DNA of 64,000 nucleotides from positions 124,001 through 188,000 of the forward strand of contig NZ_JAKZKX010000005.1 in the NCBI RefSeq assembly GCF_022808715.1, given 5' to 3'. A program made the translations under genes and the position numbers. The notes beneath the pieces were generated by a model. That model was not told the origin of the DNA. It did not search any database and worked only from the letters and a program-made list of their open reading frames with translations. Of this stretch, positions 3,489-56,919 are shown in pieces. Position 1 is the first letter of the stretch, and each line of letters begins with the position of its first letter. The stretch comes from Fundidesulfovibrio agrisoli. GTDB lineage: Bacteria > Desulfobacterota > Desulfovibrionia > Desulfovibrionales > Desulfovibrionaceae.

Positions 3489-5467
<1,979 letters not shown>

Positions 5468-5471
<4 letters not shown>

Positions 5472-6646
5472 GCGAATACGCCGAGCACGACCTGGACGCC
5501 GCGGGCGTGGGCCTGGTGGAGAAGCGCCTCTTCACCTTCGCCCAGGATGAGCCCATGCCCCTGGAGAGCGGCGCCGTCATCGGCCCCGTGACCCTGGCCT
5601 ACGAGACCTACGGCGCTCTGAACCCCGACGGCTCCAACGCCGTGCTGGTCTGCCACGCCCTCACCGGCGACAGCCACGCCGCAGGTGTCTACAGCGGCTC
5701 CGACCCCAAGCCGGGCTGGTGGGAGGTGATGATCGGGCCGGGCAAGGGCATCGACACCAACCAGTATTTCGTCATCTGTTCCAACGTGCTGGGCGGCTGC
5801 ATGGGCTCCACCGGCCCGGCCAGCGTCGACCCGGCCACGGGCCAGCCCTACGGGCCGGACTTCCCGGTGCTCACCATCGGGGACATGGTCAGGGCGCAGA
5901 AGGCCCTGCTGGACCACCTGGGCGTCAAGCGCCTGCTGGCCGCCGTGGGCGGCTCCATGGGCGGGATGCAGGTGCTGGAGTGGGCCGCGCGCTACCCCGA
6001 CAGGCTCGTCTCCGCCATCGCCCTGGCCACCGCGCCCCGGCATTCGGCCCTGCAGATCGCCTTCCACGAGGTGGCCCGCCAGGCCATCGTGGCCGACCCG
6101 GACTGGAACGGCGGCCGCTACTACAGCTGCTGCAAGCCCGCCCACGGCCTGGCCGTGGCCCGCATGATCGGGCACATCACCTACCTCTCGGACGAGGCCA
6201 TGCGCCACAAGTTCGGCCGGGGCCTGCAGGACAGGGCCGACTTCTCCTTCAGTTTCGACGCCGACTTCCAGGTGGAGTCCTACCTGCGCTACCAGGGCCG
6301 CAAGTTCGTGGAGCGCTTCGACGCCAACTCCTTCCTCTACATCACCCGCGCCGCCGACTACTTCGACCTGGGCGCCACCCACGGCAGCGGCTCGCTCACC
6401 AAGGCGTTCTCGCGCGGCAAGGCCCGCTTCCTGGTGGTCTCCTTCAGCTCGGACTGGCTCTACCCCACCTACCAGTCCCGCGAGCTGGTGCAGGCCCTCA
6501 AGCGCGCCGGAAAGGACGTGAGCTTCTGCGAGATCGAGGCCCACTGGGGGCACGACGCCTTCCTGCTGGACAGCCCCCGCCTGGCCGGGCTCATCTCCGG
6601 CCACCTGGAGCGCACCAGCCGCGACCTGGCCAGGGGGATTCTCTAG
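5468..6646 (+). CDS. metX: Homoserine O-acetyltransferase
   Basis: MetX acylates homoserine with acetyl-CoA in the first committed step of methionine synthesis. The 392-residue alpha/beta-hydrolase has the nucleophile elbow GGSMGGMQ (Ser near residue 163), the NVLGGCMGSTGPAS loop, and Asp/His partners in SSDWLYP and HWGHDAFL. The GTG start at 5468 shares four bases (GTGA) with the kinase stop, so translation is coupled. Acyl specificity (acetyl versus succinyl) cannot be read with certainty from sequence alone. metW follows without a gap. Confidence 0.93.
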
Positions 6647-7243
6647 ATGCGTTACGATCTCGACCTCATCGCCTCCTGGATCGCACCGGGATCGCGCGTG
6701 CTGGACCTGGGCTGCGGCCAGGGCGAGCTGCTGGAATACCTGCACCAGGCCAAGAACGTGCAAGGCTACGGCGTGGAGCAGGACGAAGCCAAGGCCGCCG
6801 AGGGCATCGCGCGGGGCGTCTCCATCCTCCAGGGCGACATCACCCTCGAGGTCATGGACTACCCCGACCACTTCTTCGACTTCGTGGTGCTCTCCCAGAC
6901 CTTGCAGCAGGTGGCCGAGCCCCTGGAGCTCATCCGCCAGATGCTGCGCGTGGGCCGCAGGGCCGTGGTCAGCTTCCCCAACTTCGCCCACTGGCGCGGC
7001 CGCTGCCAGATGTTCTTCCAGGGCCGCGCCCCCGTGACCCCGGAGCTGCCCTACGAGTGGAACGACACCCCCAACATCCGCGTCATCACCCTGGTGGACT
7101 TCAAGCGCTTCTGCGTGCGCCACTCCATCCCGGTCATCGAGGCCGTGGCGGTGAAGACCGAGCCCTCGGCGCGTACGGGCCTGATCCTGAACTGGCTGCC
7201 CAACCTGCGGGCGACCAACGGAATATTCCTGCTGGGAAGATAG
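6647..7243 (+). CDS. metW: MetW, methionine biosynthesis methyltransferase-like protein
   Basis: The 198-residue protein has a class I SAM-methyltransferase fold signature (VLDLGCGQGELL near residue 21, then the LQGDI acidic segment and the FDFVVLSQTLQQV motif typical of MetW). The ATG lies directly after the metX stop, and metX-metW pairing is a known arrangement. MetW is known to stimulate MetX activity in other bacteria. A direct methyl transfer role is not established. The operon ends here; a palindromic repeat follows. Confidence 0.92.
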   Translation: MRYDLDLIASWIAPGSRVLDLGCGQGELLEYLHQAKNVQGYGVEQDEAKAAEGIARGVSILQGDITLEVMDYPDHFFDFVVLSQTLQQVAEPLELIRQMLRVGRRAVVSFPNFAHWRGRCQMFFQGRAPVTPELPYEWNDTPNIRVITLVDFKRFCVRHSIPVIEAVAVKTEPSARTGLILNWLPNLRATNGIFLLGR

Positions 7244-7253
7244 GAGAGGGGGG

Positions 7254-7310
7254 ATGCCTCCGGCGGCCGAAGGGAGTTCCTCCCTTTGGAATCCGTTTTA
7301 GCTTCGCGTT
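7254..7310 (+). repeat. Intergenic palindromic repeat, copy A
   Basis: It begins with CCTCCGGCGGCC, then a short hairpin (GAAGGGAG, TTC loop, CTCCCTTT), then GGAATCC and a GCTTCGCG box. Nearly the same unit recurs at 22806-22860, and divergent relatives lie at 24551-24628 and 24741-24843. It sits just after the metW stop and may act as a transcription or RNA-stability boundary. Confidence 0.7.
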
Positions 7311-7331
7311 TTACCCGCGCCGCCCCCTTCA

Positions 7332-7360
7332 TTGACATCCCCCCTCCGACCGGATAGCGC
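7332..7360 (+). promoter_or_regulatory. Possible sigma-70 promoter before the B12 riboswitch
   Basis: A perfect TTGACA (7332-7337) lies 17 bases before TAGCGC (7355-7360), a poor -10 box. The predicted start near 7367 coincides with the riboswitch 5' end, which is the main support. Confidence 0.35.
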
Positions 7361-7364
7361 AGGC

Positions 7365-7520
7365 CCCACAGGTGCCCAGCAATGGGAGAATAGGGAATCC
7401 CGTGCAAATCGGGAGCGGTCCCGCCGCCGTAAGTTCCATGCGTGTCCGCCCCTTCGCGCGCCACTGGGGTATCCCCCGGGAAGGCCGGGGCGGACGGAAC
7501 GAGCCGGAAGACCTGCCTGT
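7365..7520 (+). promoter_or_regulatory. Cobalamin riboswitch
   Basis: The conserved aptamer core is present: GGTGCC near 7371, then the AATAGGGAATCCCGTGCAAA block (7391-7407 region), the B12-box-like AGCGGTCCCGCCGCCGT (7414-7430), a CCACTGGG loop (7471), and the closing GCCGGAAGACCTGCC (7503-7517). The ends ACAGGT and ACCTG pair as P1. The expression platform (7521-7671) runs to cbiK. Riboswitches of this class bind adenosylcobalamin or related cobalamins and turn downstream genes off. Short readings of open frames through this region are spurious. Confidence 0.93.
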
Positions 7521-7587
7521 GCCTCACACCATGCTTCCAGCAGGGCAACGGGCTATTGCCGTGCATGGATCCCAGAAGGGCGAATGC

Positions 7588-7632
7588 GGGCCGCTTCTTC
7601 ATCCGGAACCGGGTGGAGGGCGGCCTTTTCTT
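7588..7632 (+). terminator. Possible riboswitch expression-platform terminator
   Basis: GGCCGC (7589-7594) can pair with GCGGCC (7620-7625) across a 25-base loop, followed by TTTTCTTCT. It is placed between the aptamer and the cbiK ribosome site, so it could be the OFF-state hairpin. The long loop makes this tentative. Confidence 0.3.
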
Positions 7633-7671
7633 CTCCCTTCCAACTAGCCGCAAAGCGATGGAGTATCCGTT

Positions 7672-8574
7672 ATGACCCTCGTGAATGCGCATGCCTTCCG
7701 CAGATGTGCGACGCTCATCCTCGCCCTGGCGATCCTGGCCGCGGGGTGCGGCCTCGCGGCCGCCCACGGCGAAGGCAAAAAGGCCGACAAGAAGGGCGTT
7801 CTGCTGGTGGCCTTCGGCACCAGCGTCGAAGGCGCCGACGGCGTCTACGCGAACATCGAGAAAAAGGTCCGCGAGGCTCTGCCCGGCGTTGAAGTGCGCT
7901 GGGCCTATTCCTCCAAGATGATCCGCCACAAGCTCGCCAAGGAGAAGAACGCCCGGCTGGATTCCCCGGCGGAGGCCCTGGCGAGGATGATGGACGACGA
8001 CTTCTCCCAGGTGGTGGTGCAATCCCTGCAGACCATCCCCGGCGAGGAGTTCCACGCCCTGCGCGAGACGGCCCAGGCCTTCTCGGGCATGCCCAAGGGC
8101 ATGAGGCAGGTGGTGGTCGGCTACCCGCTCCTCGCCACCACCGCCGACCTGGAGAAGGCGGCCGAGGCCCTGCTGGCCGGCGCGCCCGAGGCCCGCAAGC
8201 CCGGCGAGGCGGTGGTCTTCGTGGGCCACGGCACCAGCCACCCGGCCAACGTGTATTACGCCGGGCTGCAGTACCACCTCTGGAAAAAGGACCGCGCGGC
8301 CTTCGTGGGCACGGTCGAAGGCGCGCCCACCCGGGAGGACGTCATCCGGGAGCTGAAGCAGGCCGGCATCAGGAAGGCTTATCTGGTCCCGCTTCTGGCG
8401 GTGGCCGGGGACCACGCCCGCAACGACATCGGGGGCGACGAGCCCGGCTCCTGGAAGTCGGTCCTCACGGCGCAGGGCGTGGCCTGCGAGCCCGTGCTCA
8501 AGGGCACGGCCGAATACGGCGGCGTTGTGGACATCTGGGTGGAGCACGTGAAGCAGGCCTTCGAGCGCCTGTAA
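7672..8574 (+). CDS. cbiK: Exported sirohydrochlorin cobaltochelatase (CbiK-P type)
   Basis: CbiK inserts Co2+ into sirohydrochlorin, the entry step of anaerobic cobalamin synthesis. The 300-residue protein has the CbiK pattern: VLLVAFGTS near residue 43, the VVVQSLQTIPGEEFH segment, a metal/tetrapyrrole His in FVGHGTSHP, and a second in AGDHARNDIGGDEP. An N-terminal hydrophobic segment ending LAAGC (lipobox-like) or AAA-H (signal peptidase I) shows export; a periplasmic CbiK form is known from Desulfovibrio. An exported chelatase is odd because its substrate is made in the cytoplasm; heme or metal transport roles have been discussed. The ATG at 7672 follows GGAG. It is the first gene under the riboswitch. 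Confidence 0.93.
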   Translation: MTLVNAHAFRRCATLILALAILAAGCGLAAAHGEGKKADKKGVLLVAFGTSVEGADGVYANIEKKVREALPGVEVRWAYSSKMIRHKLAKEKNARLDSPAEALARMMDDDFSQVVVQSLQTIPGEEFHALRETAQAFSGMPKGMRQVVVGYPLLATTADLEKAAEALLAGAPEARKPGEAVVFVGHGTSHPANVYYAGLQYHLWKKDRAAFVGTVEGAPTREDVIRELKQAGIRKAYLVPLLAVAGDHARNDIGGDEPGSWKSVLTAQGVACEPVLKGTAEYGGVVDIWVEHVKQAFERL

Positions 8575-8610
8575 GAGCCCATGCCCCGGAAGGGGAGGGC
8601 GGGGAACCGC

Positions 8611-9627
8611 ATGAGGGGAGTCGAACCGCTCCTGGCGCTGTGCGTGGCGCTCACCGCCCTGGCGGCCGCAGCCGCCGGGGCCGTGCCCGTGCCCGCCGCC
8701 GACGCGGCGCGGGTGCTGGCGGGCAAGCTCCTGGGGCAGGAGGGCTGGCTGGCCGGGGTGCCCGCCATGAGCGTGGCCCTGGTCTGGGACGTGCGCCTGC
8801 CGCGCATCGCCTGCGCCCTGGCCGTGGGCGGCTCCCTGGGCCTCTCCGGGGCGCTGTTGCAGGGCGTGCTGCGCAACCCCCTTGCGGATTCCTACACTTT
8901 GGGGGTCTCGGCGGGCGGAGCCTTGGGGGCCTGCCTGTGCCTGCTGGCCGGGTTCACGGGCCTGGGAGCGTTGTCCGTACCGGCATGGGCCTTGGCCGGT
9001 TCGCTCGGCGCGCTGGCGGTGGTGCTGCTCATGGCCCGAGCCGGGGGCGGCTTCGACGCCGTGACCCTGGTGCTGGCCGGGGTGATGGTGGCCGCCACTC
9101 TCCAGGCGGGCATCGGGTTCGTGAAGTTTCTGGCCGGTGAGAACGTGGCCGGGCTGGTGTTCTGGCTCATGGGCGGCTTCTCCGCCAAGACCTGGGCCGA
9201 GACGGCGATCGCCTGGGCCGGATTGGGGCTGGCCCTGCCGGTTGCCCTGGCCTTCGCCCGCGACCTGGACGCCCTCTGCCTGGGCGACGAGCAGGCCGCG
9301 GCCCTTGGAGTTGCGGTGGAGCCCGTGCGTCTGGCCCTGCTGGCGTCCGCCGCCCTGATGACGGCCTGCTCCGTGGCGGTCTCCGGCATCATCGGCTTCG
9401 TGGGCCTGATCGTGCCGCACATGGCCCGCATGGGCGTGGGGCCTGGGCATTTGCGGCTGCTGCCCGCCTCCATGCTGGGGGGGATGCTGCTCCTCTTGGG
9501 GGCGGACACCCTCTCCCGCGCGGCCCTGGCCCACGAGGTGCCCGTGGGCGTGCTCACGGCGCTGCTCGGCGGCCCGTATTTCTGCCTGCTGTTCCTGCGC
9601 GGGCGGGGAGGGCGCGCCAATGGTTGA
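8611..9627 (+). CDS. ABC transporter permease, BtuC/FecCD family
   Basis: This is a polytopic inner-membrane protein of about 338 residues with roughly ten hydrophobic helices. It carries family signatures such as RLPRIACALAVGGSLGLSGALLQG, RNPLADSYTLGVSAGG and GFVGLIVPHMAR. It is expected to dimerise with the following ATPase to import cobalamin/corrinoids or a metal chelate. The start is uncertain: ATG 8611 (MRGVEPLL, with GGAGG and GGGGA upstream) or ATG 8581, ten residues longer with a weaker ribosome site. It is 6-36 bases from cbiK and overlaps the ATPase by eight bases. Riboswitch control favours a B12-related substrate. Confidence 0.92.
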   Translation: MRGVEPLLALCVALTALAAAAAGAVPVPAADAARVLAGKLLGQEGWLAGVPAMSVALVWDVRLPRIACALAVGGSLGLSGALLQGVLRNPLADSYTLGVSAGGALGACLCLLAGFTGLGALSVPAWALAGSLGALAVVLLMARAGGGFDAVTLVLAGVMVAATLQAGIGFVKFLAGENVAGLVFWLMGGFSAKTWAETAIAWAGLGLALPVALAFARDLDALCLGDEQAAALGVAVEPVRLALLASAALMTACSVAVSGIIGFVGLIVPHMARMGVGPGHLRLLPASMLGGMLLLLGADTLSRAALAHEVPVGVLTALLGGPYFCLLFLRGRGGRANG

Positions 9628-10402
9628 GGGGGGGGCTGAGCGCGCGCTGCTGGAGGCCAGGGGCCTCACCGTGGAGCGCGGCGGCCGCGCCGTGCTGCGC
9701 GGGCTGGACGTGGCCCTGGCTTCGGGCGAGGTGCTGGGCGTCATCGGCCCCAACGGGGCGGGCAAGACGACCCTGCTGCGCTGCCTGGCCGGCCTGCAGG
9801 CCCCGGCTTCGGGCGAGGTGCTGCTGGAGGGCCGGTCCATCCAGATGGTCCCCCGCAGGGAGCTGGCCCGCACCGTGGCCTATTCGCCGCAGGAGACAGA
9901 GGACCGCTTCGGCTTCACCGTGCGCCAGGCCGTGCTCATGGGCCGCCATCCCTGGCTGCCGCGCTTCGGCCCCACGCCGGACGAGGAGTGGGAGGGGGTG
10001 GGGGCGGCCCTGGCCGCGCTCGACCTGGAAGGCCTGGCCGAAAGGCGGGTCACGGAGCTTTCCGGGGGCGAGAAACGCCGCGTGGCCCTGGCCCGCACCC
10101 TGGCCCAGGGCGGGCGCGCCGTGCTGCTGGACGAACCCGCAGCCGGGCTGGACATCCGCCACGCCATCCTGGCCCTGCGCGTCTTTGCGCGGCGGGCCTC
10201 GCGCGACGGAGCGGGGGTGGCGGTGGTGCTGCACGACCTCAACCTGGCGGCCATGTTCTGCGGGCGGCTGCTCCTGCTCCAGGAGGGCGGGGCGGCGGCC
10301 TGCGGCCCGGTGGCCGAGGTACTGACCGAGGAGAACATAGCCCGCGTGTTCGGGGTCCGCTCCAGGATGGACGGGGGGCACGTGCGGTTTCTGGAGGCTT
10401 GA
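9620..10402 (+). CDS. ABC transporter ATP-binding protein, BtuD/FecE type
   Basis: The 260-residue ATPase has Walker A (GPNGAGKTTLLR near residue 47), a Q-loop (YSPQETED), the signature LSGGEKRRV, Walker B with switch (AVLLDEPAAGLD) and the H-loop (VVLHDLN). It powers the adjacent permease. Overlapping junctions on both sides (eight bases upstream, one base downstream) show a single translationally coupled importer unit. Confidence 0.94.
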   Translation: MVEGGAERALLEARGLTVERGGRAVLRGLDVALASGEVLGVIGPNGAGKTTLLRCLAGLQAPASGEVLLEGRSIQMVPRRELARTVAYSPQETEDRFGFTVRQAVLMGRHPWLPRFGPTPDEEWEGVGAALAALDLEGLAERRVTELSGGEKRRVALARTLAQGGRAVLLDEPAAGLDIRHAILALRVFARRASRDGAGVAVVLHDLNLAAMFCGRLLLLQEGGAAACGPVAEVLTEENIARVFGVRSRMDGGHVRFLEA

Positions 10403-11268
10403 TGCGTTTTGTGCTGGCTTGCGCCATCGCCTTGTTTTGCATATTGCCGGGCCCGGCCCGCGCCGGGGATTCCCCGCGCGTGGTCAGCCTTTACGCGGCG
10501 CACGCAGAGAACCTGGCGCTCATGGGTGCGGCGGGCGTGCTGGTGGGCGTGAACGAACCCATGGGCAACCTGCCCGTGCTCTCCGCCCGGGACGGGGCCG
10601 AGGCCATCGCGGCCCTCAAGCCCGACCTGGTGCTGGCCCGGCCCATGCACCGCACCATGCAGCCCGGCTTAATCGAGCAGCTGGAGCGCCTGGGCGTCAA
10701 GGTGGCCTGCCTGCAGCCCGCCTCGCCCTCGGAGCTGGAGCCCTACTGGCTGGAGCTGGGCAGGCTCACCGGGCACGAGGCCCAGGCCCGTGGGATGGCC
10801 GAAGCCTTCCGCCGCGAGCTGGCGGCGCTGGAGGCCGTGGTCGCCAAGGTGCCGGAGGGGGAGCGCAAACGCGTGTATTTCGAGTCCATCCACCGCCAGA
10901 TGAAGACGGTGAGCCCGGGCTCCATGGCGGCCTTCGTGCTGGAGCGCGCCGGGGGGATCAACGCCGCCCCGGACGCCGAGCCCGTCTCCGGCAGCAACAT
11001 CGCCCTGTTCGGGCTGGAGCGGCTGGTGGCCGAAGGGGACCGGGTGGACGTGTATTTGGCCCAGAAAGGCCCCATGAACCCGGTGAGCGTGGAGGAGATC
11101 GCGGCCACGCCGGGCCTCTCCGGGCTCAAGGCCGTGCGGGAGGGCCGGGTGTATCTGGTGGACGAGGCATTGACCAGCAGGCCCACGCCGCGCCTGGCCC
11201 AGGGGGCGCGGCAGGTGGCCATGCTTTTGTACCCGCAATTGTTCGGAACAGACGGAGTGGCGAAGTGA
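10402..11268 (+). CDS. Periplasmic substrate-binding protein, BtuF-like
   Basis: The 288-residue protein has a cleavable signal peptide (ending ARA-G near residue 22) and the class III binding-protein fold pattern (RVVSLYAAHAENLALMGA, KPDLVLARPM, LERLGVKVACLQP, and a C-terminal REGRVYLVDEAL). It would capture the corrinoid or metallophore for the BtuCD-like pair. The ATG at 10402 overlaps the ATPase TGA by one base. Within a riboswitch operon containing cbiK and cbiL, a vitamin B12 or cobinamide substrate is the best guess; a heme or siderophore substrate is not excluded. Confidence 0.9.
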   Translation: MRFVLACAIALFCILPGPARAGDSPRVVSLYAAHAENLALMGAAGVLVGVNEPMGNLPVLSARDGAEAIAALKPDLVLARPMHRTMQPGLIEQLERLGVKVACLQPASPSELEPYWLELGRLTGHEAQARGMAEAFRRELAALEAVVAKVPEGERKRVYFESIHRQMKTVSPGSMAAFVLERAGGINAAPDAEPVSGSNIALFGLERLVAEGDRVDVYLAQKGPMNPVSVEEIAATPGLSGLKAVREGRVYLVDEALTSRPTPRLAQGARQVAMLLYPQLFGTDGVAK

Positions 11269-48201: not shown

Positions 48202-49542
48202 CTACGTCAAGATCTTCGAGAGAACCCACACGTACCCGGCCGAAGCCAGGAGCTGGCAGACCGTCACCGGCACGCCGTAGCGCAGGAAGCGCACGAAGGA
48301 GACGGGGCTGCCCTGCGACGCGCAGATGCCCCCGGCCACCAGGTTGGCGGAGGAGCCGATGAGCGTGGCGTTGCCGCCCAGGGTGCCGCCGAACATCATG
48401 GCCACGAATACGGGCAGGGTCTGGTCCGGCCAGTCGGTGAAGGCGATGCCCATGGCCTCCTCGGGCACGATCTGGGTGAGCACGAAGTAGCCCTTGGTCA
48501 GAAGCACCGCCGCCGCCACAACGGGGATATTGGCCAGGAAGCCCGAGACCAGGCCGATCCCGCCCATGAGCACGATGCCCACCAGCAGGAAATCCTGCCC
48601 GAACGCGCTCTGCATGCCCCGCGAGAGCCCGCCCAGGGCTCCGGTTTTGGTGACCTCCTCCACGTAGCACATCATGCTGAAGATGAAGATCAGCGTCTTC
48701 CAGTCAATGTCCCTGAAGACGTTCTCCAGGGGCTCCACCTTGTAGGAGTACATGGCCAGCAGCGCCAGGCTGGCCCCGATGATCGCCGCCGAGGGCGGAA
48801 CCACGGGCCTGGGCAGGTATTCGCCCACCAGGAAGAGCGCCACCATCAGGGCCATGGAGAACACGGCGAACAGGCAGAAGCCGGGGCGGGCGATGGGCCC
48901 CGGGGCCAGCCCCTCGGGCAGGGCGCGCCGGGCGCGCCACACGCCCCTGAAAAGCACGGGCATCAGCGGCACCACGACCAGGATGGCCAGCACGCCGCCC
49001 AGGCTCACCTTGCGCAGATACTCCACGAAGCCCAGCCCGGCGGCCTGGCCCACCAGGAAGGTGGCAGGGTCGCCCACCAGGGTCAGCAGCCCGGCCGCGT
49101 TGCTGAGCATGGCCACCATTATCAACGGGCCGACGAAGTCCACCTCGAGCTCGCGGCAGACGCGCACGACGATGGGCGCGATGAGGATTACGGCCGTGGC
49201 GTTGGGCAGTATGGCGCAGACCACCGAGGTCAGCACCGCGGTGTAGAGCAGGAATCGCTTGCCGCTGCCTTTGGTCAGGATCAGGAAGCGGGTGCCGACG
49301 TGTTCGAAGACGCCCGTTGGCGCCAGCACCCTGGCCACGACCATGCCGCCGAAGAGCAGTGCCAGCGCGCCCTGGGAAACCATGACCGCGCGCATGACGT
49401 CGCTGTTGGAGATGATGCCCAGCAGGGTCAGGGCGCACAGCCCCAGCATGCCCGCGAGGGCCATGTCCATCAGGTTGCAGGCGATGACCAGGATGACCGC
49501 CCCGAACACGGCGAAGATAATGTGGGCTTGATATTCCGGCAT
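48202..49542 (-). CDS. Ion/anion permease, SLC13/ArsB-NhaD superfamily
   Basis: The 446-residue protein has about ten to twelve helices and superfamily segments such as LPNATAVILIAPIVVRV, LTLVGDPATFLVGQAAG and GGTLGGNATLIGSSANLVAGGI. Substrate is unclear: arsenite, sodium/proton or a carboxylate have all been proposed for relatives. AAGGAAAG lies upstream. It begins 28 bases after the binding-protein gene and likely shares its mRNA. Confidence 0.85.
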   Translation of the reverse strand: MPEYQAHIIFAVFGAVILVIACNLMDMALAGMLGLCALTLLGIISNSDVMRAVMVSQGALALLFGGMVVARVLAPTGVFEHVGTRFLILTKGSGKRFLLYTAVLTSVVCAILPNATAVILIAPIVVRVCRELEVDFVGPLIMVAMLSNAAGLLTLVGDPATFLVGQAAGLGFVEYLRKVSLGGVLAILVVVPLMPVLFRGVWRARRALPEGLAPGPIARPGFCLFAVFSMALMVALFLVGEYLPRPVVPPSAAIIGASLALLAMYSYKVEPLENVFRDIDWKTLIFIFSMMCYVEEVTKTGALGGLSRGMQSAFGQDFLLVGIVLMGGIGLVSGFLANIPVVAAAVLLTKGYFVLTQIVPEEAMGIAFTDWPDQTLPVFVAMMFGGTLGGNATLIGSSANLVAGGICASQGSPVSFVRFLRYGVPVTVCQLLASAGYVWVLSKILT

Positions 49543-49570: not shown

Positions 49571-50599
49571 TCAGAAGGGGGGGGCGTACATCAGGCCGCC
49601 GTCGGACCAGAGGCGGTTGCGGCCCCTGTCGAGCCGCAGGGGGCTCGCGGAGCCCAGGTTGCTCTCGAACATCTCGCCGTAATTCCCCGACGCGGCCACG
49701 GCCCTGAGCATCCAGCCCGGCGCGAGGCCCAGGGCCTTGGCAATGGCGTCCGCGTCGCCCAGCGTGCGCCGGGCGGCCCCATCGCCGAGGCTTTGCCCGC
49801 CATCCGCGAGGGCCTTCGCAGCGCCGTCGCGGGTCAGCCCGCATTCCTCGGCGTGCACCAGGGCCGCCAGCACGCTGCGCACGGCCAGCAGCCACTCGGC
49901 GTCGTCCGAGCGCACCACGGGAGCGATTATCTCGTAGTTGTTCGCATCGCGCAGCACGGCGTATTCCGCCGCCCCGGGGCCAAGCGAGGAGAGGAACCCC
50001 GCCAGCACGACGCCGTCCGCGGTCAGGGCCTTGCACTGCCCTGCCAGGAAGACGTCCCGGGCCTGCTCCGCGCTGTTGCAGTACAGCGGCGTCATGCGGA
50101 TTCCGTTGGCCGCGGAGAAGTCCTCAAGATCCTGGGCGTGGGTGGTGCCCTTGACGATGCACAGGCTGGCCCCGTCGAGGCCCTTGGCGTCGCGGATGCC
50201 GTCGGCGGTGCGCACCATGAAGCGCTGGGCCGTGTACAGCAGTGGCCCGGCGAAGCTCACCTTCAGTTGGGCCTCGCGGCCGATCGTCCAACTGGTGTTC
50301 CGGCCCAGCAGGTCCACCTGCTTGGCCAGCAGGGCGGGGAAGCGGCCGGCGGTCTCCAGGGGAAGGAAGCTGACCTTGGCGGGGTCGCCCAGCACTGCGG
50401 CGGCCACGGCCCGGCTGAAGTCTATCTCCAGGCCGCGCCAGACCCCGTCGGCGCCCGGCTGGGAGAGGCCCGGCAGGGCGTTGCTCACGCCGCAGCGCAG
50501 TTCGCCCCGTTTCTTGATCATCTCGAAGGTGTCCCCCGCCGCGGCGGGGGCGGCGAGCAGCGTCAGGGCCGCAAGGGCCAGGGCGAGAACGCGCGTCAT
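49571..50599 (-). CDS. Amino-acid ABC transporter periplasmic binding protein, AapJ/BztA-like
   Basis: The 342-residue protein has a signal peptide (ALTLLAAPAAAG, cleavage near residue 22) and the SBP family 3 pattern: MIKKRGELRCGVSNALPGLSQPGADGVWRGLEIDFSRAVAAAVLG, VDLLGRNTSWTIGREAQL and LCIVKGTTHAQDLEDF. This is the general L-amino-acid binding type. No permease or ATPase gene for it is in the window; an ArsB-like permease follows instead. GGAGG stands before the ATG at 50599. Confidence 0.88.
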   Translation of the reverse strand: MTRVLALALAALTLLAAPAAAGDTFEMIKKRGELRCGVSNALPGLSQPGADGVWRGLEIDFSRAVAAAVLGDPAKVSFLPLETAGRFPALLAKQVDLLGRNTSWTIGREAQLKVSFAGPLLYTAQRFMVRTADGIRDAKGLDGASLCIVKGTTHAQDLEDFSAANGIRMTPLYCNSAEQARDVFLAGQCKALTADGVVLAGFLSSLGPGAAEYAVLRDANNYEIIAPVVRSDDAEWLLAVRSVLAALVHAEECGLTRDGAAKALADGGQSLGDGAARRTLGDADAIAKALGLAPGWMLRAVAASGNYGEMFESNLGSASPLRLDRGRNRLWSDGGLMYAPPF

Positions 50600-50727
50600 G
50601 GGCTGCCTCCGGTTGTGCGTGCTATCCGCCTTATCTATGATCCAATGGGAATCGATAGGCAAGCATGCGTAGCGCGAAGACCGAAGTTTTTCGGGTGGAT
50701 ATGTGAAGGCCGAGGGATGGCGCATCC

Positions 50728-50859: not shown

Positions 50860-51465
50860 CTATTTGATGAAGCGGACCTGGCGGTTGATCTCTTCGATGA
50901 TGGGGCCCTTGCTCTCGTTGTAGCGGGCCTTGTTCTCCTCGAAGAGGTTGTTGCCTTCGGTGTCGATGGAGATGATCAGGGGGCCGAACTCCTTCACGCG
51001 GCAAACCCAGAGGGCCTCGGGCATGCCCAGGTCCTCCCATTCCACGCGTTCGATCTCCTCCACCTCGGTGGCGGCCAGCACGGCGCAGCCGCCGGGGAAC
51101 ACGGCGTGCAGGGCCTTGTGCTTCTTGCAGGCCTCGGCGGTCCTGGGGCCCATGCCGCCCTTGCCCACGATGAGCTTGACCCCGGTGCGCTCGATGAACT
51201 CGTCCTCGAAGCGCTCCATGCGCATGCTGGTGGTGGGGCCGATGGAGATCATCTTCCAGCCGTCGCCGTCCTTCACCACGATGGGCCCGGCGTGGAAGAT
51301 GGCCAGGCCCTCGAGGTCCACGGGCAGCTCCCGGCCCAGCTCGATGAGGCGGCGGTGGCCCACGTCGCGGCAGGTGACTATGTGGCCGTTCAGGAAGACC
51401 ACGTCCCCCACGCGCAGCGAGGCGATGTCCTCGCTTACGATGGGCGTGTTGAGGATCTTTTTCAC
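50860..51465 (-). CDS. ttdB: L(+)-tartrate dehydratase beta subunit (class I fumarase type)
   Basis: The 201-residue subunit has [97 protein letters not shown] and a C-terminal [21 protein letters not shown]. The length and motif order are what I remember of E. coli TtdB. The same subunit type occurs in two-subunit class I fumarases, so fumarate hydratase is the alternative. GTG start at 51465 overlaps the alpha-subunit stop (GTGA); AAGGAGG is upstream. Confidence 0.85.
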
Positions 51466-52358
51466 AGCACGGCCTCCTTGTGCGAGAGGATTTCGTAGGA
51501 CAGGTCCGGGGCGATGCGGATGGTGCCCCGCCGGTGGGCCCAGCAGCCCACGGACACGCCCACGCCGATGGTGGAGGGGTGCCTGGCCGAATTCTCGATG
51601 TGCACGCCCAGCACCGAGGACTTGCCGGAGAGGCCCTGGGGGCCGAGGCCCACCTCGTTGAGGCCCTTTTCCAGCAGCAGCTCCATCTCGGCCGCCTGGG
51701 GGTTGGGGTTGCGGGTGCCGATGGGGCGCAGGATGGCCTTCTTGGAGAGCATGGCCGCCGTCTCCACGGAGGTGGAGACGCCCACGCCCACCAGCAGGGG
51801 CGGGCAGGCGTTCACCCCGTAGGAGGTGATGACGTCGAACACGAACTGCACCACGCCCTCGTACCCGGCCGAAGGCATGAGCACCTTGGCCGCGCCGGGC
51901 AGGCTGCAGCCGCCGCCCGCCATGTACACCTCGATGGTGACGCAATCGCCCGGGACGATGTCCCACTCGATCCAGGGCACGCGGGTGCCGGTGTTGTCGC
52001 CGGTGTTCTTCTCCACGAAGGTCTCCACCGCGTTGTGGCGCAGGGGGGCGTCCTTGGTGGCCCGGCGCACCGCCTCGCCCAGGATCTCCCGCAGCTCGCC
52101 CAGCAGGGGGAAGCCCGCCCCGGCGGTCACGAAGTACTCGATCACGCCGGTATCCTGGCAGCATGGGCGGTCGAGCTTGTCGGCGGCCTCCTGGTTCTCG
52201 AACATGGAGTCGTAGACCACGCGCGCCAGGGGGCTGTCCTCGCCTTCGCGCAGCTGCGCCAGCTTGTCCAGCACGTCCTGGGGCAGGCGCTTGCCCACGT
52301 ATCCCGTGAACTTGGCCATGATCTCCGTCAGGGACCGTTTGGCCTCTTGCTTGTCCAT
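51462..52358 (-). CDS. ttdA: L(+)-tartrate dehydratase alpha subunit (class I fumarase type)
   Basis: The 298-residue subunit holds the 4Fe-4S ligands in RPCCQDTG (near residue 69), [12 protein letters not shown] (near residue 190) and [10 protein letters not shown] (near residue 275). Stretches such as [30 protein letters not shown] and [22 protein letters not shown] closely follow E. coli TtdA from memory. It dehydrates L-tartrate to oxaloacetate; fumarate/malate hydration is the alternative. ATG 52358 (AGGAG seven bases upstream) is better than TTG 52364. Confidence 0.86.
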
Positions 52359-52414
52359 TCGCAAGCTCCTTGTGTCGTCTGTACGCCGTCGGCGGCGCGT
52401 TCAATGCCGCGGGC

Positions 52415-53347
52415 TCAGCAGGTGAGGCCGATGGTGGCCAGCTGAGCCTTGATCTTCTCCGCGCTGCGGGTCAGGGCCGCGCGCTCCTCATCGGTGAGCT
52501 CGATCTCCCTGATCTCCTCCACGCCGTTGGCCCCGAGCTTCACGGGCACGCCCACGAAGGCCCCGGAGATGCCGTACTCGCCGCTGAGGTAGGCCGTGCA
52601 GGGCAGTATCTTCTTCTTGTCCATGACCACGGCGGCCACCATCTGCGTCACGGCCGAGGCCGGGGCGTAGAAGGCGCTGGTGTGCATCAGCCTGATGATC
52701 TCGGCCCCGCCGTCGCGGGTGCGGGCCACCAGCTCCTCCAGCTTCTCGGCTGGCATGAGCTCCGGCAGGGGGATGCCCGCCACGGTGGAGTAGCGGGGCA
52801 CGGGGACCATGTCCTCCCCGTGCTCGCCCAGCACCATGGCCTGCACGTTCTCCACCGAGACGTTCATCTCCTTGGAGATGAAGTACTGGAAGCGGCTGGC
52901 GTCCAGGATGCCGGCCATGCCGGTGATGCGGGCGCGCGGTATCTGCCCGGCCTGCATGGCCACGTGGCACATCACGTTGAGCGGGTTGCTCACGATGATG
53001 TAGAAGGCGTAGGGGCTGTACATGGCCGCCTTGGTCACGCACTCGCGCACGATCTCCGCGTTGATCTTGAGCAGGTCGTCGCGGGTCATGCCCTCCTTGC
53101 GGGTGGCCCCGGCCGTGATGACCACGATGTCGGAGTTCCGGGTCTGCTCCAGATCCTCCCCTGAGACGCATACCGGCTCCAGCAGGTCCACGGGGCTGGC
53201 CTCCAGGATGTCCAGGGCGATGCCCTGGGCCTTGCCGGGGCTGCGGTCCACCAGCACGACCTTCTTGCAGAGCTTTCGCTCGATGAGCCTGCGGGTGACG
53301 GCTCCGCCCACGTTGCCCGCGCCGAACACGGTGATCTTTCCGTTCAT
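52415..53347 (-). CDS. mdh: Malate dehydrogenase
   Basis: This 310-residue LDH/MDH-family enzyme interconverts oxaloacetate and malate with NAD(H). It shows [11 protein letters not shown] (NAD binding), [22 protein letters not shown] with the substrate-binding arginines that favour malate over lactate, NPLNVM, and the catalytic His in [12 protein letters not shown]. It lies between the dehydratase genes and the antiporter, so it would reduce oxaloacetate made from tartrate. AGAGG lies before the ATG at 53347. Confidence 0.94.
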
Positions 53348-53377
53348 GTGTGTGGCCTCTGTTGGATGTTTCGCGGC

Positions 53378-54811
53378 CTAGTCCTTGAGCATGAGCATGT
53401 AGGGGAAGTCGATGCCCACCAGCGCCGCGATGAAGATGACGCCGAAGACGAAGCCTAGGGTCCAGAACTCCTTGCGGGTGATGTAGCCGCATCCGTAATA
53501 CACGGGGCTGGGGCCGGTGGCGTAGGGCGTGAGGATGCCCATGAGCCCGAGCGTCGCGCAGATCAGGATGGAGAAGGTCTTCATGGGAATGCCCGGGATG
53601 CCCATGGCCGTGGCCAGGATCACGGGCAGGAGCGCCGTGGTGTGCGCCGTGAGGCTGGCGAACATGTAGTGGATGAAGAAGAACAGCAGCACCAGGGCCA
53701 CCATCAGGGCGTTGACCGAGAAGCCGGACATGGCCCCCGCCGCCAGCGCCGCGAACCACTTCAGGAAGCCCACCTTGCCCAGGCCGTCGGCCAGGGCCAC
53801 CAGGGTGCCGAACCAGCAGAGCACGTTCCAGGCGGTCTTGTGGCTGGTGATGTCGTCCCAGGTGACCACCTTGGTCAGGATCATAAGCGACAGGGCCATC
53901 AGGGCCACCACGGTGGCGTCGAAGAGCTTGCCGCCGAATATCCACAGCAGCAGGGCGAACACGGCCAGGGATGCCATGGTCAGCTCCTTGGCGGTGATGG
54001 AGCCCATCTTGGCCAATTCCTCTCCGGCCCACTTGGGGGCGTCCTCGCTGCGTTTGATCTCGGGCGGATAGATCACGTAGATCAGGAAGGGCGTGGCCAC
54101 GAAGAGCAGGATGCAGGCCGGGGCCAGGTGCACGAACCATTCGGTCCAGCCGATGGTGAGCTTGGTGGTCTTCTCCAGGAGCGAGAGGGCCAGCAGGTTG
54201 GGCGCCAGGGCCGTGAGGAACATGGTGCTGGTGATGCAGGTGGTGGCCAGGGCCGTCCACATCAGGTAGCCGCCGATCTTGCGGGCCCCGCTCTCGGGCG
54301 TGGAGCCGTAGAGCGGCGGGATGTTCTTGATGATGGGGAAGATCACGCCGCCGCTGCGCGCGGTGTTGGAGGGCGTGAAGGGGGCCAGGGCCAGGTCCGC
54401 CAGGGCGACCGCATACCCGAGGCCCAGGGTGCTCTTGCCCAGGGTCTTGATGAGAAGCAGGGCGATGCGCTTGCCGAGCCCGGTTTTCTCGTAGCCCATG
54501 GCGAACATGAAAGCCACGAAGATGAGCCAGACCGTGCCGTTGGAGAACCCGGAGAGCGCCCAGCGCACGGCGTCGGCCGTGGTGGGGGCCTTGTCTGCCG
54601 TGGCGGGCACCAGGTTCAGCGCCGCGGCCAGGGTGACGCCCATGAGCCCCGCGGCGGCCGCCGGGATGGGCTCGATGACCAGCGCCGCGATCACCGCCAC
54701 GAACAGGGCGAAATAGTGCCAGGCGTAGGGCTGCAGGCCTTGGGGAGTGGGGACGAACCACAGGGCGAGCCCTATGGCCAGCGGGAGTACGGCCTTCCAG
54801 TCGAGTTTCAT
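53378..54811 (-). CDS. Dicarboxylate antiporter, DASS family (TtdT/CitT-like)
   Basis: The 477-residue protein has about 12 helices and the DASS substrate motifs [55 protein letters not shown] and [19 protein letters not shown]. These are close to the E. coli tartrate/succinate antiporter TtdT as I recall it. It would take up tartrate and release succinate. It is the first gene of the minus-strand operon, with a sigma-54 promoter 80 bases upstream. Confidence 0.9.
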
Positions 54812-54894: not shown

Positions 54895-54910
54895 AGCAGA
54901 ATCCGTTCCA
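54895..54910 (-). promoter_or_regulatory. Sigma-54 promoter of the TtdT-mdh-ttdAB operon
   Basis: Read on the minus strand, TGGAACGGATTCTGCT matches TGGCACG-N4-TTGCW at 14 of 16 positions, with GG-N10-GC spacing. It faces the antiporter and is adjacent to a sigma-54 activator gene. Confidence 0.82.
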
Positions 54911-54959
54911 AAAATAACGTACAATTATCTCAACATGTTGCTGGCTTGCGTCGCAGGTG

Positions 54960-54987
54960 TGAAACGGCTATGTCTCAAATCGTTTCA
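54960..54987. promoter_or_regulatory. Upstream activator site (TGAAACG-N14-CGTTTCA)
   Basis: A perfect 7-bp inverted repeat, TGAAACG (54960-54966) and CGTTTCA (54981-54987), is centred about 90 bases upstream of the expected sigma-54 start site and just before the activator start codon. The spacing suits a Fis-type HTH dimer of the divergent activator. Confidence 0.68.

Positions 54988-55017: not shown

Positions 55018-56919
<1,902 letters not shown>

Follow-up and report, generated by a model that had tools for sequence, protein, structure and literature searches.

A probable tartrate-utilisation operon containing the only NAD-malate dehydrogenase gene found in the genome of Fundidesulfovibrio agrisoli

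What would a sulfate reducer do with a gene pair resembling that of tartrate dehydratase, placed behind genes for a malate dehydrogenase and a DASS-family carrier? The question is raised by a 64,000-nucleotide stretch of the Fundidesulfovibrio agrisoli genome (contig NZ_JAKZKX010000005.1, positions 124,001 to 188,000; hereafter the window), in which a compact minus-strand operon at positions 50860-54811 runs from the carrier gene through mdh and ttdA to ttdB. Tartrate is the acid of grapes, and from the sequence evidence assembled here we consider it quite probable that the locus is an inducible operon for its utilisation, in which a known enzyme family is met in a host and an operon that are both unusual. 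A dsrA gene scores over its cut-off in the same genome, in agreement with the organism being a sulfate reducer.

All four genes were found where the sequence-only reading had placed them on the minus strand, and each product passes a curated family model. The first gene encodes a carrier of 477 residues (53378-54811; DASS model TIGR00785, 486.7 bits against a cut-off of 198.6; PF00939, 536.4 bits) and is followed after 30 nt by mdh, encoding an NAD-dependent malate dehydrogenase of 310 residues (52415-53347; TIGR01763, 379.7 against 351.85), which stays below the L-lactate dehydrogenase model (237.5 against 303.55). After a gap of 56 nt comes ttdA for the alpha subunit of the tartrate dehydratase, a [4Fe-4S] hydro-lyase (51462-52358; NF006084, 520.1 bits against 365), with 298 residues counted from an ATG, a TTG two codons upstream being likewise open; it overlaps by 4 nt with ttdB, which starts with GTG and encodes the beta subunit of 201 residues (50860-51465; NF006082, 357.5 bits against 264). 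TtdA is present in six of the seven genomes of the genus (here and below including its own) at 85-100% identity, the seventh genome being 66% complete. The arrangement is not due to chance, because all six TtdA-bearing genomes show the identical order of a divergent activator gene, DASS carrier, mdh, ttdA and ttdB.

The genome has three genes of the Fumerase family (PF05681): ttdA of the window, one on contig C50 together with fumarate reductase genes and one on contig C9 together with a DASS carrier gene. The window alpha subunit falls under the cut-off of the model for the alpha subunit of two-subunit fumarases (NF004885, 241.6 against 276); those of C50 and C9 pass it (396.9 and 290.4) and stay below that of the tartrate model (190.5 and 143.1 against 365). 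Identity to the E. coli counterpart is 63% for window TtdA and 70% for window TtdB, as opposed to 31-35% to the other two hydratases of the same genome. The sequence-only reading had put both subunits nearer to TtdA and TtdB than to fumarase and had suggested a phylogeny as a check, and both do group with TtdA and TtdB: in the alpha tree 24 tartrate-type rows are separated from 12 others, including E. coli FumA and FumB, with a support of 100/100, and in the beta tree 23 tartrate-type rows from 10 others. The tartrate clade includes E. coli TtdA and the alpha subunit of Salmonella (serovar Senftenberg, L083), on separate branches. Tree rows were hand-picked from the retrieved sequences and omit short or broken alpha subunits (L018, L021, L022), near-duplicates (L010, L015, L084), repeat loci and the remaining fumarases of the genus; the beta tree further omits Klebsiella, where the gene is split, Acetoanaerobium and Sulfurovum. 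Family models and both trees thus assign the window subunits to a tartrate dehydratase, and class I fumarase was discarded as their identity.

Some residues are common to all alpha subunits compared, and others differ between the two groups. C67, Q68, D69, G71, C185 and C272 are invariant in all 36 rows of the alpha alignment, forming a CQD-G motif plus three cysteines that we take to be the site and ligands of the [4Fe-4S] cluster. Position 116 of the alpha subunit is E in 24/24 tartrate-type rows, the others having R in ten cases and E in two, and in the beta subunit E84 and H120 are found in 23/23 tartrate-type rows against D and Y, respectively, in 10/10 others. Alpha E116 and beta H120 also distinguish the window enzyme from the solved fumarase 7xky when compared by eye. 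Alpha N109 was dropped as a diagnostic column although it divides the rows completely (N in 24/24, S in 12/12), because 7xky, a fumarase, carries N there.

The strongest evidence from genomic context for a role in tartrate metabolism are links to tartrate dehydrogenase in the same genome and in one relative. At a second locus of F. agrisoli (L051, G000:C25:32000-42690, positions 4700-8653), probably also for tartrate or for D-malate, a LysR gene is accompanied by genes for a DASS carrier with 75% identity to that of the window and for a tartrate dehydrogenase (TIGR02089, 543.1 bits against a cut-off of 470.4). In genome G166 of the same family, a tartrate dehydrogenase gene (TIGR02089, 534.0) directly follows mdh-ttdAB; another TIGR02089 enzyme is encoded upstream of ttdAB in L011 and one nearby in Pantoea. 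A further locus of F. agrisoli (L052, G000:C9:72000-84704, positions 6431-10742) combines a DASS carrier (63%) with a two-subunit hydratase of the fumarase type and has, ahead of them, a frame with 37% similarity to the window activator; it probably serves malate or fumarate and is built in a similar way.

Is mdh then an additional, tartrate-specific copy? A search of the genome for such enzymes at an E-value of 0.001 gave this one alone, and an Ldh_2-type enzyme was not found either (malate:quinone oxidoreductase was not searched), so that an extra copy was discarded. The sequence-only reading had described a "built-in" malate dehydrogenase, a wording that calls for amendment, since no second NAD-malate dehydrogenase was found in the genome. 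Each of the six TtdA-bearing genus genomes likewise has one Mdh match at 1e-30, the operonic copy, and the seventh has a different Mdh (33%); matches reach this threshold in 56 of 285 family genomes. Outside the genus, G166 and G269 have mdh directly before ttdA, the contig of G269 beginning inside mdh. For seven close Mdh relatives (69-83%) in other genera, flanks of about 1.5 kb on each side (less at contig ends) contained nothing that matched ttd genes. That mdh and ttdAB travelled as one unit was rejected, since a single clade of the eight operonic Mdh among 18 rows was excluded by the approximately unbiased test (p-AU 0.0002). Operonic Mdh of G269 instead pairs as sister (100/99) with Mdh of G270, a member of the same genus in which mdh has no ttd neighbours; G269 is a metagenome-assembled genome (MAG) with 5% contamination, and the deeper Mdh tree is unresolved. 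As the operonic enzymes do not form one clade and G269 and G270 have sister copies, mdh seems to have been resident while its partner changed. The simplest reading of the trees would be that a resident mdh became co-transcribed with ttdAB, the order of gains and losses not being set by these data. A housekeeping-type enzyme is here located inside a substrate-specific operon.

Concerning regulation, a gene on the plus strand divergent to the operon (55018-56919, ATG start), on which the sequence-only reading was silent, encodes a sigma-54 enhancer-binding activator with a PrpR_N sensor (PF06506), a PAS domain (PF00989), an AAA+ domain (PF00158) and a Fis-type helix-turn-helix (PF02954). It scores below the PrpR equivalog cut-off (379.6 against 499.2) but may work like PrpR, even if not filed as such, given its domains. 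A predicted sigma-54 (-24/-12) promoter of the operon, TTGGAACGGATTCTGCT, lies at 54895-54911 on the minus strand, and its pattern TGGAAC-N5-CTGCT is kept in the alignment of all six genus genomes within a stretch that by eye is poorly conserved. A loose sigma-54 scan did no better than chance (23 matches against 31.7 expected). The longer promoter pattern, with at most one mismatch, gave two matches against 0.24 expected, the operon site being exact and the other lying inside the carrier gene; the palindrome TGAAAC-N16-GTTTCA, a putative activator site at 54960-54987, about 50 nt upstream of the promoter, gave one against 0.03 expected. Both patterns were picked after seeing the sites and the loose scan is at chance, and the promoter therefore stands on its conservation, which suggests that the operon is induced. 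The palindrome has both half-sites in 5/6 genus genomes and GTTTCA in 6/6; we propose that the activator binds there in response to a ligand. PrpR, mdh and fumarase go unmentioned in a paper on the sigma-54 regulome of D. vulgaris (PMC4641369).

The gene identities, their order and conservation, the promoter match and the enzyme families are read from the DNA; which isomer is used, what the inducer is, whether exchange takes place, which way the flux runs and whether the enzyme is sensitive to oxygen are inferred, and the pathway would run as follows. The PrpR_N-type activator would sense tartrate or a product of it and act on the -24/-12 promoter; the DASS carrier is proposed to import tartrate, probably swapping it for a C4-dicarboxylate such as succinate; TtdAB, a [4Fe-4S] hydro-lyase presumably sensitive to oxygen, would convert tartrate, most likely the L(+) form, to oxaloacetate, which Mdh would reduce with NADH to malate. 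Malate could then leave through fumarase and fumarate reductase to succinate or through malic enzyme to pyruvate. Fermentation, succinate exchange and specificity for L-tartrate, all put forward by the sequence-only reading, belong to these conditional points. For the first exit, the frd-fum locus encodes a fumarate reductase flavoprotein (1069.4 against 663) and an iron-sulfur subunit (408.1 against 264) that pass their models, and a cytochrome b subunit under its cut-off (150.5 against 187). For the second, a malic enzyme domain is present in the genome. The sole PYC_OADA match is a frame of 1237 residues, the size of a pyruvate carboxylase, and no separate oxaloacetate decarboxylase alpha subunit was seen (the beta subunit was not searched), which makes Mdh one route onward to pyruvate.

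As to the isomer, TtdAB of Salmonella is described as producing oxaloacetate, part of which goes to fumarate respiration and part to a decarboxylase pump, and its ttdBAU genes are induced by L-tartrate (PMC11237755). E. coli FumA and FumB convert D-tartrate and neither L- nor meso-tartrate (PMC3565967), and the position of the window enzyme outside the fumarases thus argues for L-tartrate. An old "d-tartrate" trait label in Salmonella has been glossed as dextrorotatory l(+)-tartrate (PMC6536469). L(+)-tartrate would be the likeliest substrate, because the L-tartrate enzymes of Salmonella and E. coli share the clade of the window enzyme and FumA and FumB do not act on the L form.

Several observations weigh against the assignment to tartrate. 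Support for the split in the beta tree is moderate (86/85), and a long-branch, unannotated Rhodococcus row, counted as non-tartrate, adjoins the tartrate clade in both trees, its join being flagged as unsafe by the program in the alpha tree. Characterised enzymes among the 12 non-tartrate alpha subunits are E. coli FumA and FumB alone. Window TtdA matches seven distinct PDB sequences, every one named fumarate hydratase, and family names can mislead: 5dni and 7xky are identical in their matched letters, yet the first is titled putative tartrate dehydratase and the second fumarate hydratase, and DVU_3265 of D. vulgaris, by its place probably a fumarase beta subunit, is listed as tartrate dehydratase (PMC10920352). 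The neighbouring tartrate dehydrogenases stay under the NF006048 cut-off of 501 (490 for that of L051, 467.4 for that of G166, 496.5 and 439.7). The carrier was expected from the sequence-only reading to be a TtdT-like antiporter; DASS membership holds, but it is no nearer to E. coli TtdT (47%) than to CitT (48%), and the family comprises both exchangers and cotransporters (PMC7553777). Finally, Mdh may serve general malate metabolism.

A rival explanation is an operon for the C4-dicarboxylates malate and fumarate, with class I fumarase subunits and a malate-oxidising Mdh, and such pairings exist: a Sulfurovum plasmid carries mdh adjoining a fumarase alpha gene, a malate dehydrogenase gene of D. 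desulfuricans is reported near fumarate reductase and hydratase genes (PMC5701242), and F. agrisoli itself has the separate DASS-fumAB locus. We consider this explanation very unlikely, as the alpha subunit fails the fumarase and passes the tartrate cut-off, stands in a clade of its own and is encoded in a genome that already holds two fumarase-type hydratases. Use of the same operon for meso- or D-tartrate, or for another 2,3-dihydroxy acid, appears improbable. Family models are blind to stereochemistry, tartrate dehydrogenases like the neighbouring ones also accept meso-tartrate or D-malate, and a clade member (L012, below) adjoins an aconitase-family subunit, a hint of wider substrates; but the clade contains the L-tartrate enzymes of E. 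coli and Salmonella on separate branches, and D-tartrate in E. coli is handled by fumarase (PMC3565967).

Two further explanations keep an operon for tartrate. Tartrate might be mainly a carbon and electron source, with oxaloacetate being turned into malate and then, with the help of malic enzyme, into pyruvate and acetate, and with sulfate as acceptor in place of a succinate fermentation. This differs from our proposal in flux alone and is a serious possibility, if short of an even chance: the malic enzyme domain and the lack of a separate oxaloacetate decarboxylase alpha subunit in the search speak for it, the presence of fumarate reductase and fumarase speaks against it, and so does the occurrence of exchangers in the DASS family, which fits a succinate product (PMC7553777). 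Tartrate could also be a terminal electron sink in the genus, imported under a sigma-54 switch and reduced to succinate via malate and fumarate; with the only NAD-malate dehydrogenase of the cell in the operon, the whole reductive C4 branch would be tied to tartrate sensing. We hold this only tentatively and find it rather doubtful; if true, it would amount to tartrate respiration in a sulfate reducer.

How widespread is the tartrate operon? TtdA was found in 8 of 288 genomes of the family, those outside the genus (2/281 at 1e-100) being G166 and G269, and in 2 of 395 genomes of an even sample of the phylum at 1e-90, where the other carrier is G311 (53%); no match to the window Mdh, carrier or activator was seen within a 14-kb stretch around its ttdAB. 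TtdAB is also encoded in a Desulfobacteraceae MAG (L012), where an activator-type frame resembles the window activator (37%) over residues 1-292, including the sensor part. Near these genes lie a TctA-like carrier (by eye) and an aconitase-family large subunit, perhaps of a different dicarboxylate pathway. Tartrate use linked to malate dehydrogenase had been called no textbook trait of sulfate reducers, which may be right, but Desulfovibrio desulfuricans REO-01 is reported, without mention of genes, to metabolise tartrate (PMC12298637); another sulfate reducer is reported not to use it (PMC11206085). The literature searched, in its available parts, gave no report tying tartrate use to ttdAB-mdh in sulfate reducers (including PMC5840216, PMC9751629, PMC3541049 and PMC7320173). 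New here are the sole NAD-malate dehydrogenase found, residing in the operon, the conserved sigma-54 promoter and the second locus of carrier and tartrate dehydrogenase. Our reading predicts growth on or with tartrate in one genus, through genes absent from nearly all sampled relatives, and would give tartrate use, a trait for which we found one report in sulfate reducers, a genetic basis in this group.

On the 3' side of ttdB follow genes for an amino-acid-type binding protein (49571-50620) and a CitMHS/ArsB-type carrier (48202-49542); we left them out of the operon because they are matched in place in only one of the five other genus loci, that of the closest relative (G003). A terminator scan stayed at chance level (3 candidates against 3.4 expected). 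Elsewhere, three records, two of Symbiopectobacterium and one of Enterobacter (L018, L021, L022), have a ttdA frame that is short or disrupted, which suggests that the trait is decaying there, and in Klebsiella aerogenes NCTC10006 (L094) ttdB and the oxaloacetate decarboxylase alpha gene are each annotated in two pieces. A plasmid of Acinetobacter schindleri typed as mobilizable (L086, 3523-9364) holds a LysR gene, an MFS gene, ttdAB and an NAD-malic enzyme gene, as in plasmid-borne tartrate use, and on a Liquorilactobacillus mali plasmid (L088, 8065-8823) an unlisted stretch 3' of ttdB resembles the window carrier (38% over 266 residues).

Compared with known systems, the E. coli cluster ttdR-ttdA-ttdB-ttdT shares the two-subunit dehydratase and the DASS carrier at the identities given above, but is controlled by the LysR-type TtdR (PMC11237755) and lacks mdh, whereas the window has a PrpR_N/sigma-54 activator, the carrier gene first and mdh second. 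In Salmonella and Klebsiella, where ttd is combined with oadGAB, a carrier of the DASS/SLC13 type, ttdA and ttdB occur in the same order and mdh lies just past two regulator genes; these clusters differ in that both regulators are of the GntR type and an oxaloacetate decarboxylase is encoded, their mdh stands apart from the ttd genes, next to argR, and its product is 29% like window Mdh, and the Salmonella carrier gave no match to that of the window at an E-value of 1e-5. Alpha subunits closer than that of E. coli (71-76% identity) are encoded in the proteobacterial MFS-ttdAB clusters of Pantoea, Kosakonia, Azoarcus and Caballeronia, which have an MFS carrier and a LysR gene (read by eye in Kosakonia), in Pantoea also a gene of the fumarylacetoacetate-hydrolase family, and no match to window Mdh or carrier in the stretches examined. 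A Nitrospiraceae MAG (L013) has no window-Mdh match in its stretch and its carrier gene comes last, but its ttdA-ttdB-DASS cluster is alike in the carrier (58%) and in both subunits (71 and 76%), and it is preceded by a frame 33% like the window activator over residues 174-624.

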